From NCBI GenBank assembly GCA_903858595.1, contig CAIOJL010000182.1:1-41867 (forward strand): a stretch of 41,867 nt of DNA. Reading direction: 5' to 3'. Positions 9,491 through 23,348 of the stretch are shown here, in pieces. A program made the translations under genes and the position numbers. Position 1 is the stretch's first letter. The number at the start of each line of letters is the position of its first letter. Origin of the DNA: an uncultured Spartobacteria bacterium. Its GTDB lineage: Bacteria; Verrucomicrobiota; Verrucomicrobiia; Chthoniobacterales; UBA6821. The notes under the pieces were generated by a model, which saw nothing but the letters and a program-made list of their open reading frames with translations, ran no database searches and was not told the DNA's origin.

Positions 9491-11086
9491 TTACAGACGG
9501 ATGACCTTGGCGGTCGAGATGTCGGCGTCTGATGTCACCTTGGCAAGCAGAGCCTCGTCTGGTGCAGAGTCGAGATTGAGCAGGGTCAGTGCCTGTCCCC
9601 CGACTTCATTGCGGCTCAGCGACATGCTTGCGATATTGACGTTGTTCTGACCGAGGATTGTGCCAAGATGGCCGACGATACCCGGACGATCACGGTTCTC
9701 GAGAAGGAGGATGATGCCTGAGGGCACTCCCTCGACAAAGCGGCCGTTAATCGTGACGATGCGCGGCTTGGAACCATAAAGCGTTCCGCCGACTGATGCC
9801 GTGACGCCATCCTGGGTGATGGAGGCCTCGATGAGGTCGGTGAATTCCCCCGCTTCGCTCTGGCGTGTTTCAATGACTTCAAGTCCCAGGTTAGCGAGGA
9901 TGGCGGGAGCATTGACGGGATTGACATCGTTGCCATGAGTATAACGAAGGAATCCGGTGATGAGCTCACGGGTGACGGCTGTCAAATCTTGCTCCACGAA
10001 GCGACCGCTGAAGCGTATGGAAAGCTTCTCGGCGCGCTTGGGCGCGATCTGCGCAAGAAAGAGTCCAAGCTTGCCACCCAGTTCAATCCAGGGACCGAGG
10101 ATGGAAATGGTCTTGGCGTCGATGTTGGGCATGTTGACGGAATTGCGGATCTCACCTTGGAGCAGGGTAGCTCGAACAGCCTCGGCAATCTCGATGCCTA
10201 CGAGTTCCTGAGCCTCTGCTGTGGAGGCGCCGAGGTGAGGGGTGAGCACGAGGTTCGGAACATCTCGGTGGGGCCATTCCGCAGGAACGGGCTCGACCTC
10301 GAAGACATCTAGGGCCGCTCCGCCGATCTGGCCGCTCGTGAGTCCCTCGGCGAGGACATCCTCGTCAATCAGTCCGCCGCGGGCGCAATTGATAATGCGG
10401 ACGCCTTTCTTGAGCAGGGGAAGCTGCTTGCGACCGATCATGTGCTTGGTCTCTTCGGTCAGAGGCATGTGGACAGTGATGAAGTCTGCTTGTGGAAGGA
10501 TGTCGTCCACCTTATCGACAACTTCGACCTGCAGTGACTTCGACTTGCTGGCTGAGATGTAAGGATCGTAGGCGAGCACTCTCATGCCGAAGGCAATCGC
10601 GCGGCGGGCCACTTCGGTGCCGATACGGCCCATGCCGAGGATGGCGAGGGTCTTGCCGTGAAGTTCGACACCCTCGAATTTTTTGCGGTCCCACTTGCCG
10701 GCCTTCATGCTGGCATCAGCCTGGGGAATAAAGCGGGCGGTCGCCAGCATGAGTGAGAAGGCGTGCTCAGCCGTGGATATCGTGTTGCCGCCGGGAGCGT
10801 TCATGACAATAACGCCGTGCTTGGTTGCGGCCTCCACGTCCACGTTGTCAATGCCGACACCGGCGCGTCCGACAACCTTGAGATTTTTGGCGGCTGCGAA
10901 AACGGCGGGCGTAACCTTGGTCTGGCTACGGACCACCAATCCTTGGAACTCGGGGATGATCTTAATCAGTTCCTCCTCTTTGAGGCCTGTCTTCACCACA
11001 ACATCGATGACCCCTCCCTCGGCAAGGGCTTCAATTCCACGATGGGAAACCGGATCTGCGACGAAAACTTTTGGGATTTTGCTCAT
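9491..11086 (-). CDS. serA: D-3-phosphoglycerate dehydrogenase (with ASB and ACT domains)
   Basis: VGRAGVGIDNVD, LGMGRIGTEVARRA, NCARGGLIDEDVL, TPHLGASTAEAQ; ~530 aa long form with C-terminal ACT (DRPGIVGHLGTILGQNNVNIASMSLSR); start placed at MSKIPKVFVAD. Confidence 0.95.
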   Translation of the reverse strand: MSKIPKVFVADPVSHRGIEALAEGGVIDVVVKTGLKEEELIKIIPEFQGLVVRSQTKVTPAVFAAAKNLKVVGRAGVGIDNVDVEAATKHGVIVMNAPGGNTISTAEHAFSLMLATARFIPQADASMKAGKWDRKKFEGVELHGKTLAILGMGRIGTEVARRAIAFGMRVLAYDPYISASKSKSLQVEVVDKVDDILPQADFITVHMPLTEETKHMIGRKQLPLLKKGVRIINCARGGLIDEDVLAEGLTSGQIGGAALDVFEVEPVPAEWPHRDVPNLVLTPHLGASTAEAQELVGIEIAEAVRATLLQGEIRNSVNMPNIDAKTISILGPWIELGGKLGLFLAQIAPKRAEKLSIRFSGRFVEQDLTAVTRELITGFLRYTHGNDVNPVNAPAILANLGLEVIETRQSEAGEFTDLIEASITQDGVTASVGGTLYGSKPRIVTINGRFVEGVPSGIILLLENRDRPGIVGHLGTILGQNNVNIASMSLSRNEVGGQALTLLNLDSAPDEALLAKVTSDADISTAKVIRL

Positions 11087-11252
11087 GATGAGAGGTGTGT
11101 GTTTTGTTGGTTGTGTGAATATTGCTACCATGGAGCTGCTTGCCCTTGCAGTAATGGACAAAGAACGATGCCACTGAGAGACTACGACCGGCTAGTAACT
11201 CCATCAAATCTGAAAAAAATACAAAACTCCACACGAGGGCGGATGACAAGAG

Positions 11253-11278
11253 GTGTTTGTGAAAAATTTCACAAACAC
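11253..11278. promoter_or_regulatory. Rex-like operator palindrome between serA and the atp operon
   Basis: GTGTTTGTGAAA-AA-TTTCACAAACAC perfect inverted repeat; core TTGTGAAAAATTTCACAA matches the Rex operator consensus TTGTGA-N6-TCACAA. Confidence 0.6.
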
Positions 11279-11289
11279 TCAAAAAGCAC

Positions 11290-11318
11290 TTGCCAGACGG
11301 GGCTTGCTTGATTGTTAT
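11290..11318 (+). promoter_or_regulatory. Candidate sigma-70 promoter for the atp operon
   Basis: TTGCCA - 17 bp - TGTTAT, ~38 nt upstream of the atpB ATG at 11356. Confidence 0.4.
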
Positions 11319-11355: not shown

Positions 11356-12184
11356 ATGGTTTTTTCAATCCTCCCGATAGCCAGCGCGGAACTTTCCGCG
11401 GAGACGCCTGAGTTTCTGACTCACTCCTTTCTTGCCTGGTTCACCAATTCGATCCTCGTCACGGCGATCGTGCTCGGGGTGATCATGTGGATCGTCCGCT
11501 CCTGCACCCGCAAGATCGAAGTCATCCCGGGGGCAGGTCAGAATTTCCTCGAGGCGGTCGTCGAGGGTTTTTACGGCGCCGTGGAGGGGATTCTTGGCGA
11601 CAAGATGACAAGGAAGTCTTTTGGTCTTCTCGGAACACTTTTCATTTTTATCCTGATCTCGAACTGGTTCGGCTTGCTGCCAGGCGTTGGTTCGATCGGT
11701 TGGCATGAGGGGGACAAATTCATTCCTCTCCTTCGTCCGGGGACCGCGGACATGAACATGACCATTGCCATGGCTGCAGTGTCGATGGTTCTCTGGTTTT
11801 ACTGGACGATGCAGGTCACGGGACCGGTTGCCTTCATCAAAGAACTCTTCGGCGTGAAAGGTGGCATGTCTGGCCCTATTCTCTTTCTCCTGGTGCCTCT
11901 CTTCCTCTTTGTGGGCGTGCTGGAGGTTGTTTCCATCGTAGTTCGCCCCGTCTCTCTCTCTCCGACTCTATGGAAATATCTTTGCCGGTGAGAACATGCT
12001 CGCGACGATGATCAATATAGGTCAAATCTTTCATTTCCCCCCTTGGCTCTCCTCGGTCCTGAGTTGCATTGTTCCCATTCCCTTCTATTTCCTGGAATTG
12101 CTTATCGGATTCCTCCAGGCAATGGTCTTCACTCTCCTGATTCTTGTGTACCTCCAACTCTCAACAGCGCACGAGGAACACTAA
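11356..12184 (+). pseudogene. atpB: ATP synthase F0 subunit a, frameshifted as given (5' part ends at 11991; remainder to 12184 in another frame)
   Basis: 5' frame ...LEVVSIVVRPVSLSPTLWKYLCR*; shifted frame from 11963 gives RLYGNIFAGENMLATMINIGQ...LLIGFLQAMVFTLLILVYLQLSTAHEEH*, the conserved subunit a C-terminus. Confidence 0.88.
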
Positions 12185-12601: not shown

Positions 12602-13099
12602 ATGGAAATTTTAAAACAATTCGGAGTTGATTGGCCGCACTTCATTGCCCAGTTGGTTCTTTTCCTCATCGTTTACTTTGTCCTGAACCGCTTTGCCTTC
12701 GCTCCCTTGCTGAAGGTTCTGGAAGAACGTCGCAAGCGCATTGAGGAAGGACAGCTCAATGCTGAGAAGATCAAGAAGCAGCTTGCCGAAGCGGAACTCC
12801 GTTATCAGGAGATTCTCCGGAAAGCCAATGATGATGCTCAGGTGATGATTGAGGAGTTACGCAAGAGCAATGAGGCATTTTCCCAACGGGAGATGGAAAA
12901 GGCTGTCAAGGAATCAGCCGCTATTGTGGAACGGGCTCGCCACGAAATTACTTCCGAGCGCAACCGCATGGTCGACGAAGTAAAGCGAGAGATGGTTTCT
13001 CTTGTCGTCAAGACCACGGCCCAGGTCGCAGGCAAGGTTCTCTCACCCGAAGATCAGAAGCGCCTCAGTGAGGAAGCCTCCAAGGAACTCGCTTCCTAG
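12602..13099 (+). CDS. atpF: ATP synthase F0 subunit b
   Basis: N-terminal TM helix followed by long charged coiled coil (VLEERRKRIEEGQLNAEKIKKQLAEAE...); operon position. Confidence 0.93.
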   Translation: MEILKQFGVDWPHFIAQLVLFLIVYFVLNRFAFAPLLKVLEERRKRIEEGQLNAEKIKKQLAEAELRYQEILRKANDDAQVMIEELRKSNEAFSQREMEKAVKESAAIVERARHEITSERNRMVDEVKREMVSLVVKTTAQVAGKVLSPEDQKRLSEEASKELAS

Positions 13100-13146
13100 G
13101 GCAATCTTGATCCGCTTTTCAGGAAACTCCCAACGTACCAACCACG

Positions 13147-13536
13147 ATGCAGATCCCCAAGGATGCCAAAATTAAGGCCAGGGAACTCTTCGAGTCCTCA
13201 CTCGATGACTCTGGACGCCCTGACAGTGCCAAGGCACTCTCCATCGCTGACCTCGTTGTGAATGCCGCCCCGCGTCACTCCGTTCAGATCCTCAGGGAGT
13301 TTGCGCGCCTGATCCGACTCGAGACAGCCAAGCATCACGCCGTGATCGAAAGCGCCGCCCTTCTAGACGAAGGAACCCGCGACTCGATTCTCAAGTCCCT
13401 GCAAGAACGGGATGGGGGAGCCGTCACGGTCGAAGTGAAAGTCGATCCAGTACTTATCGGCGGCGCTCGCATCCGTCTCGGAAGTGAAGTCTGGGATGCC
13501 TCGGTGCTGTCCCGTCTCTTAGCCCTGAATTCCTAA
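13147..13536 (+). CDS. atpH: ATP synthase F1 subunit delta (short form, 129 aa)
   Basis: C-terminal VEVKVDPVLIGGARIRLGSEVWDASVLSRLLAL resembles delta/OSCP (DPxLIGGxxIRxGxxxxDxSV...L); operon position. Confidence 0.85.
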   Translation: MQIPKDAKIKARELFESSLDDSGRPDSAKALSIADLVVNAAPRHSVQILREFARLIRLETAKHHAVIESAALLDEGTRDSILKSLQERDGGAVTVEVKVDPVLIGGARIRLGSEVWDASVLSRLLALNS

Positions 13537-13598
13537 TTATCACCATTGCCTGTTAACCCTTCCTCTTCCTAAAACTCACCTTTCAACACCCACAAACC

Positions 13599-15134
13599 AT
13601 GAGCAACCTCCTGCAAGAACTTGAAGCAAAGATCAGCGGTCTTTCCAACGCAACCGCTGCCAAATCCAATGTCGGAACCGTCCGCGAGATCGGAGACGGT
13701 GTCGCCCGCATCGAGGGACTCGGCGGCGTCATGCTCAACGAGATGCTCGAGTTCCCTGGTGGGATCTACGGCATCGCGCTGAACCTCGAGGAGACCGAGG
13801 TTGGAGCCATTATTCTCGGAGATTACACGTCGATCTCCGAGGGGGACGAGGTGAAGACCACCGGGCGCCTGCTTGAGGTGCCGGTCGGCAAGGAGCTTCT
13901 CGGTCGCGTTGTTGACTCACTCGGACAGCCGATCGATGGGAAGGGACCTATCCAGTCGAAGACCTTCTACCCCGTCGAGAAGACAGCTCCCGGTATCATC
14001 AAGCGTCAGAGCGTCAGTCAGCCTCTCTGCACCGGCATCATGTCCATCGACGCGATGATTCCTATCGGTCGCGGTCAGCGTGAGCTTATCATCGGTGATC
14101 GAGCCACTGGCAAGACGACAATCGCCATAGACACGATCATCAACCAGGCAAACATCAACCGCTCGGGTGAGGCCTCCGGAGATCCTTCCTTCCGTCCTAT
14201 CTACAGTATCTATGTTGGCGTTGGTCAGAAGAATGCGAACATTGCCCGTGTCGTCGACACGCTCTCCTCCCACAATGCCCTCCAGTACACGATCATCGTC
14301 TCTGCTCCCGCATCGGACAGTGCTTCAAACCAGTACCTTGCCCCCTTTGCCGGCGCGGCGATGGGAGAGTGGTTCATGGATAATGGCATGGATGCCCTGA
14401 TTGTTTTTGACGATCTCTCGAAGCATGCCGTGGCTTATCGTCAGATTTCTCTTCTTCTCAAGCGTCCTTCGGGACGTGAGGCCTATCCCGGTGATGTCTT
14501 CTACCTTCACAGCCGTTTGCTCGAGCGTTCCGCCCGTCTGAGTGAGAAGGCCGGAAACGGATCCCTCACAGCCCTTCCAATCATCGAGACTCAGGCTGGT
14601 GACGTGTCGGCCTACATCCCGACAAACGTCATCTCGATTACGGATGGCCAGATCTACTTGGAGACCGATCTCTTCTATCAGGGTATCCGACCAGCTATTT
14701 CGGTCGGTCTTTCAGTCTCACGCGTCGGTTCCGCAGCGCAGATTAAGGCGATGAAGCAGGTTGCCGGTAAGCTGAAGGGCGATCTTGCCCAGTTCCGCGA
14801 GCTAGCCGCCTTTTCCCAGTTCGGCAGTGATCTGGATGCCCGCACCAAATCTCAACTCGATCGCGGAGGGCGCATCGTGGAACTCTTCAAACAGCACCAA
14901 TATCACCCGCTTGCCGTGGAGCTTCAGGTTGCCATCCTCTGGACCATGCAGAAGGGGTACTTTGATGCGGTCGCGGTCGAGCGGGTCAAGGACTTCCAGG
15001 ATCAGCTTTCCCAGTTCCTAAACTCCCGCAAGGAGGCCCTCCTCTCACTCATCCTCAAGAAAGGTGCCGTTGATGCCGAGATCGAGAAAGAACTGACTGC
15101 GGCATTGGAAGAGTTCAAAGTCATTTTCCGCTAA
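13599..15134 (+). CDS. atpA: ATP synthase F1 subunit alpha
   Basis: [18 protein letters not shown] Walker [28 protein letters not shown]. Confidence 0.97.
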
Positions 15135-15163
15135 AATAACCATATAACGCATACTGGTAGCTT

Positions 15164-16048
15164 ATGGCTAATACCCGCGACATCCGCCGACGCATTAAGT
15201 CGGTCAAGAACACTGCCCAGATTACGAAGGCAATGCAGATGGTCGCCGCATCCAAAATGCGCAAGGCTCAGCAGGCTGCCATGGCCGGACATCCCTACTC
15301 CCTGGTTCTCAACAGGGTCCTTGTTTCCCTGCGGGACATGGTGAGCGCGGACTTCCATCCACTGCTGGAGGTTCGGCCTGTGAAGAAGACTCTGGTCCTC
15401 CTTGTCACCTCGGACAAAGGGCTCTGCGGTGCTCTTAATACCAACGTGCTTCGGGAGGCGATGCTGCTTGATCAGGAGAAGACTCTCTTCGTTGCCTCCG
15501 GAAAAAAGGGAGCTTCTTTTCTGGCAAGAACAGGGCGCAACATGATTGCTGATTTCGCACTGCCCGACAATCCAACCTTCCTTCAGACCAAAGCGATTTC
15601 CAAATATTGCTTGGAGAAGTTCCTCTCCGGTGAAGTCGACCGCGTTGAGGTGCTCTACCCGAAGTTCGTTAACACGCTGGTTCAGAAGCCTCTCCTGGTT
15701 ACTCTACTTCCCATCACGGATGATAAAGCCGCAGGAGTTTCCCAATCGGTTAGTGAACAGGTGGCTATAGAGGCAACGGCAACAACCGGAGCCCAGTTCC
15801 TGTTCGAGCCGGGTGCGGATGAAGTCCTCAATTCCGTTCTTCCCTATTACTTCCACTTCGAGGTGTTCCAGATGATCCTCGATGCACGAGCTTCGGAACA
15901 GAGCGCCCGCATGGTTGCGATGAAGAGCGCGACCGACAATGCGAAGAGCCTCGTGAAGGATCTCACTCTTGAGTACAACAAGGCCCGTCAGGCCAGCATC
16001 ACCACCGAACTTCTCGAAATCACAACCGCCCAGATGGCTCTTGCGTAA
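15164..16048 (+). CDS. atpG: ATP synthase F1 subunit gamma
   Basis: IRRRIKSVKNTAQITKAMQMVAASKMRKAQ; C-terminal MKSATDNAKSLVKDLTLEYNKARQASITTELLEI. Confidence 0.97.
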   Translation: MANTRDIRRRIKSVKNTAQITKAMQMVAASKMRKAQQAAMAGHPYSLVLNRVLVSLRDMVSADFHPLLEVRPVKKTLVLLVTSDKGLCGALNTNVLREAMLLDQEKTLFVASGKKGASFLARTGRNMIADFALPDNPTFLQTKAISKYCLEKFLSGEVDRVEVLYPKFVNTLVQKPLLVTLLPITDDKAAGVSQSVSEQVAIEATATTGAQFLFEPGADEVLNSVLPYYFHFEVFQMILDARASEQSARMVAMKSATDNAKSLVKDLTLEYNKARQASITTELLEITTAQMALA

Positions 16049-23319: not shown

Positions 23320-23348
23320 GCGTTTCCAAAATTTCCTCCCCGAAGATA

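Follow-up and report, generated by a model that had tools for sequence, protein, structure and literature searches.

A predicted Rex operator upstream of the ATP synthase operon of an uncultured Spartobacteria bacterium, and its co-occurrence with rex in Chthoniobacterales

Results

A predicted Rex operator precedes the ATP synthase operon

The stretch of DNA analysed here (41,867 nt, hereafter the window) carries an inverted repeat between serA and atpB that is very probably the operator through which the NADH/NAD+-sensing repressor Rex controls the atp (F1Fo ATP synthase) operon (Table 1). This reading rests on sequence comparisons of five kinds: the site itself, a rex gene in the same genome, the co-occurrence of the two across the order, their joint loss within the genus, and the respiratory targets that the sites share. 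Binding by Rex, its response to NADH and repression as the outcome are properties that we infer from the Rex family.

The initial annotation described a perfect 26-bp palindrome. Its letters and coordinates were correct; the two arms pair perfectly, but the AA spacer is not self-complementary and the whole is therefore not a perfect palindrome. The window held two repeats whose arms reach 12 bp or more around a spacer no longer than 6 nt, whereas 20 dinucleotide shuffles yielded 0.1 on average; the second repeat, at 23348, has a 4-nt spacer. The proposal that the 18-bp core fits the Rex operator was upheld, as the core matches 14 of the 14 specified bases of the published operator TTGTGAANNNNTTCACAA. 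When up to three mismatches to TTGTGAAANNTTTCACAA were allowed, the window held one match, where 0.18 were expected.

Table 1. Features of the serA–atpB region, in window coordinates
Feature	Position	Strand	Remarks
Inverted repeat GTGTTTGTGAAA-AA-TTTCACAAACAC	11253-11278	.	Arms 12/12 bp, perfect; 2-nt spacer AA
Predicted Rex operator core TTGTGAAAAATTTCACAA	11257-11274	.	18 bp; consensus match, conservation with rex
atp promoter, -35 box TTGCCA	11290-11295	+	15 nt from operator core; conserved in congeners
atp promoter, -10 box TGTTAT (inferred)	11313-11318	+	17-nt spacer; position common to congener alignment
atpB (ATP synthase subunit a), first target gene	11356-11991	+	PF00119; frame interrupted, continues at 11951-12178 in another frame
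atpF, delta subunit, atpA, atpG (same operon, downstream targets)	12602-16048	+	PF00430, PF00213, PF00006, PF00231
serA (D-3-phosphoglycerate dehydrogenase), divergent neighbour, candidate target	9491-11086	-	PF02826, PF00389, PF19304, PF01842
Probable main serA promoter, TTTGAT (11208-11203)-N16-CGTAGT (11186-11181)	11181-11208	-	Same element upstream of congener serA
TTGTCA box, at best a second, operator-proximal serA -35	11244-11249	-	7 nt from core

In the 2.35-Mb genome assembly the exact core was present in two copies, one in the window and one on contig C215, and these were also the only exact copies of TTGTGAAANNTTTCACAA; the reversed-pattern control for exact TTGTG-N8-CACAA gave no match in the genome. 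Beside the exact copy on C215, the genome search for further sites that the initial annotation had called for returned a one-mismatch core copy on contig C212, where a polyprenyl-diphosphate synthase gene starts. A larger native regulon at up to three mismatches (nine real matches versus four in the reversed control) stood little above chance. Because only two native sites were detected, the exact-sequence regulon of this genome is small. Contig C215 (2.5 kb) carries another serA/atpB junction (locus L006), with an AtpB 90% identical to that of genome G001. It probably comes from another species of the genus (a congener) and was binned here by mistake, and therefore would provide an independent footprint of the site, not a second native copy.

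The operator lies upstream of a conserved atpB promoter

We confirmed that serA, on the minus strand, and atpB, on the plus strand, flank the repeat, and that TTGCCA-N17-TGTTAT and the minus-strand TTGTCA occur where the initial annotation had placed them. A strict sigma-70 scan called no promoter in the serA–atpB intergenic region, and the atpB promoter was assigned because it is conserved in congeners. In the alignment CTTGCC-N17-TTnnAT is found genus-wide, and CTTGCC or CTTGCA is kept in nearly all aligned congeners, including those lacking rex or the operator (G003 has CTTGAT). The atpB frame itself changes within 11951-11991, with the first part at 11356-11982 and the remainder matched at 11951-12178; as atpB is essential and its frame is unbroken in congeners, this change is probably an assembly or sequencing error.

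The operator core ends 15 nt before the inferred -35 box, so that the operator lies upstream of the atp promoter without overlapping it, and its centre maps to about -60 relative to the inferred start. Promoter overlap is a usual, not a defining, property of Rex operators; it is lacking at atpB and is found at other sites, for instance at the polyprenyl synthase start. An order-wide search for the operator followed by CTTGNMA, which counts only promoters that carry this box, gave 36 matches, nearly all verified as directed toward atpB or actA, with one mqnE match on the wrong strand. Among the 34 gaps tabulated, 23 measured 5–7 nt, one 13 nt and ten 15–16 nt. The two main gap classes differ by about one helical turn, and a single genus (g11) has gaps of both 6–7 and 16 nt. 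With one value per genus-level set, the sets not being fully independent, the phases clustered (Rayleigh P about 0.001). Given this partial dependence and the uncounted promoters without the box, we regard a fixed helical phase of the operator relative to the -35 box as suggestive.

The genome encodes a Rex ortholog

The Rex reading had been made contingent on a rex gene, and the search for one identified an ortholog in this genome. The single Rex encoded (216 aa, L001:1453-2100) lies in the gene order miaB-rex-ogg, where ogg is an 8-oxoguanine glycosylase-like gene, annotated by reading. The protein combines an N-terminal winged helix (PF06971) with a C-terminal Rossmann domain (PF02629) bearing GxGNLG, and it scored 218.6 bits against the NCBIfam model NF003995, "redox-sensing transcriptional repressor Rex" (cut-off 126). 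Its best PDB matches were all Rex proteins, one of them labelled "AT-rich DNA-binding protein". The structure of Thermotoga maritima Rex bound to DNA gives the residues that contact the operator (PMC8836258), and eight of these are identical here (Arg12, Ser33, Gln46, Arg48, Gly58, Arg60, Gly61 and Tyr64), while Lys49 is replaced by Arg and Lys43 by Gln. No exact operator site was found at rex itself.

rex and the operator co-occur across the order and are lost together within the genus

The genome studied is a metagenome-assembled genome (MAG), and its nearest named relatives are MAGs of freshwater Spartobacteria/Chthoniobacterales. We compared 146 Chthoniobacterales genomes, taking TTGTGAANNNNTTCACAA as the exact site, and found rex in 61, the exact site in 61 and both in 56. 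The resulting table (56 with both, 5 with rex only, 5 with the site only, 80 with neither) gives a Fisher P of 2e-28, a value uncorrected for phylogeny. The conservation that the initial annotation had expected from footprinting was also seen, the operator core being kept at the same place in congeners with rex.

The ten discordant genomes differ in kind. Those with rex and no exact site are G015, G035, G070, G123 and G132, and in G123 and G132 the rex matches are weak or partial. We rejected G015 as a case of rex without a site: its two Rex-like genes are remote, lie elsewhere and lack several DNA-contact residues. This congener, itself without an exact operator, carries them in divergent orientation (G015:C124:11246-12814, L077/L078), and their products are 31–33% identical to the Rex described here, with changed DNA-contact residues. 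The site without a detected rex occurs in G007, G012, G027, G064 and G069. We also rejected G007 and G012 as counter-examples: in both, the contig breaks off within miaB or directly behind it, at the very place expected for rex, which went undetected because of these assembly gaps. G064 and G069 are MAGs of 89–92% completeness, and the single site of G027 adjoins unrelated genes.

Six species of the genus (G003, G005, G009, G010, G013 and G014) have a clean miaB-ogg junction; as miaB is followed directly by the glycosylase gene, rex is truly missing from them. In the five whose region upstream of atpB could be read (the contig of G014 starts at atpB), the promoter is kept and the operator is replaced by degenerate sequence. 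An AtpB tree is weakly resolved, but those of its branches that have support require the "no rex, no operator" label to have changed three times or more.

Sites elsewhere in the order precede respiratory genes

Elsewhere in the order, sites precede nuoD, nuoEF, the alternative complex III genes actAB, cydA, ndh2, mqnE and polyprenyl-diphosphate synthase. The actA/actB site stands before a pentaheme cytochrome in an alternative complex III neighbourhood, an assignment made by reading the genes (Pfam gives a multiheme cytochrome), and the polyprenyl synthase site lies beside or overlaps the start codon. No fermentation gene was seen at the identified sites. The atpB site likewise sits at the promoter of a respiratory operon and, as predicted from these comparisons, is part of a respiratory Rex regulon.

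Control of serA by the same operator is doubtful

The initial annotation had suggested shared redox control of the ATP synthase operon and serA. The atp half of this is strongly supported by co-occurrence with rex and joint loss; the serA half is weak, as the site follows atpB and not serA. In G002, G004, G007 and G012 serA starts about 1.3–1.4 kb away and the site still lies about 80 bp before atpB, a distance that it keeps throughout. Only at four loci (the window, C215, G001 and G008) does serA lie directly across the operator. At each of them a -35-like box is placed 7 nt from the core (TTGTCA in the window and G001, TTGCCA in G008, CTGACA in C215), and a second, Rex-controlled serA promoter is possible for that reason. 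These four cases are not independent, however, as the window and G001 share intergenic DNA, and the serA promoter in Table 1 is closer to the gene than the operator is and is present in the genus also where the operator is distant or absent. That one operator would control both divergent genes therefore seems to us doubtful. In G004, G012 and G002, serA and the operator are separated by a gene or long open frame (L115, L148, L149 and L155); the window, C215, G001 and G008 have no such intervening frame, although the AtpB of the window groups with those of G012 and G004.

Discussion

In the mechanism that we propose, a Rex dimer that carries no NADH while NAD+ predominates would bind the 18-bp core, a short way ahead of the atpB promoter, and lower atpB transcription. 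A rise in NADH/NAD+ would release Rex from the operator, and ATP synthase would be made together with quinone synthesis and, elsewhere in the order, with complex I, NDH-2, alternative complex III and cytochrome bd. As the operator precedes the -35 box at an apparently fixed helical phase, bound Rex may hinder upstream contacts of RNA polymerase without covering the -35 and -10 boxes, which is the least certain step of the mechanism. Several findings count against this explanation as a whole: a centre near -60 is unusual for a simple blocking repressor; rex occurs in G035 and G070 without an exact site, and sites occur in G027, G064 and G069 without a detected rex; and this genome yielded only two native sites.

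The same position bears on two other protein-based readings. Rex could bind the site and yet activate the atp promoter, or play both roles, by contacting RNA polymerase from upstream. Operator-to-(-35) gaps of 5–7 or 15–16 nt, with the one exception, form a helical-turn pattern that would suit such contacts, but the spacing counts are phylogenetically dependent and cover only promoters with the CTTGNMA box. The cited Rex studies all describe a repressor, switching ATP synthase on when NADH is low would be less plausible physiologically, and at another target, polyprenyl synthase, the site is at the start codon; we consider activation improbable. A CRP/FNR-family activator could also be envisaged. 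CRP binds TGTGA-N6-TCACA, which the letters of the core match, and the operator, which precedes the -35 box at an apparently fixed helical phase, has its centre close to the class I CRP position. Against this, a search for the CRP/FNR-type helix-turn-helix domain PF13545 (HTH_Crp_2) returned nothing from this genome and nothing from 13 of 15 congeners, whereas 14 of 14 control genomes matched; with no such domain detected, this reading is left without a candidate regulator, and we rejected it. The inner AAA-NN-TTT is moreover conserved, which CRP does not require, and the presence of the site tracks rex and its targets are respiratory, making a CRP/FNR site very unlikely.

The repeat could instead act as RNA, in a terminator or attenuator hairpin. 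As a transcript it would form a strong fold (-20.3 kcal/mol, z -4.75), but the repeat precedes the conserved atpB promoter, is flanked by divergent genes and has no T tract. No Rfam family matched the repeat, and its loss tracks that of a protein gene, rex. We rejected this candidate too, and give it next to no credence.

The Rex operator reading finds its closest counterpart in Streptomyces avermitilis, where the operator consensus is TTGTGAANNNNTTCACAA and Rex represses atpIBEFHAGDC, nuo (nuoA1-N1), cyd (cydA1B1CD) and ndh2 (PMC5355995). The two systems are alike in this consensus, in the presence of a Rex ortholog, and in having ATP synthase, complex I, cytochrome bd and NDH-2 among the predicted targets. 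They differ in operator position, as the S. avermitilis atpI operator spans -50 to -22 (PMC5355995) and, like that of nuoA1, covers the -35 region, whereas the operator here lies 15 nt upstream of it. Rex of S. avermitilis is also autoregulated, with hemACDB, in contrast to the miaB-rex-ogg arrangement and its lack of a detected exact site, and targets in the order extend beyond those of S. avermitilis to alternative complex III and menaquinone/polyprenyl synthesis. The core is also a perfect match to the Staphylococcus aureus consensus TTGTGAAWWWWTTCACAA, as cited in PMC5355995. Targets of Rex in S. aureus are genes of fermentation and nitrate respiration, whereas the sites identified here showed no fermentation gene.

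On a broader and tentative view, which we hold to be possible but rather less likely than not, Rex of Chthoniobacterales would be the master regulator of oxidative phosphorylation as a whole (complex I, NDH-2, quinone synthesis, alternative complex III, cytochrome bd and ATP synthase). At the atp promoter it would then act from upstream and in helical phase, and would contact RNA polymerase or stand in its way without covering the promoter. We found no Rex regulon for Verrucomicrobiota in the literature searched, a search that did not extend to Ravcheev et al. 2012, reportedly the main comparative study, and priority for such a regulon is not established.

The repeated disappearance of rex together with the atpB operator amounts to a natural experiment, and the helically phased position poses a small open question on the mode of Rex regulation. 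Together with the respiratory sites elsewhere in the order, the predicted operator would give concrete redox-control wiring to an abundant, little-cultured freshwater lineage.
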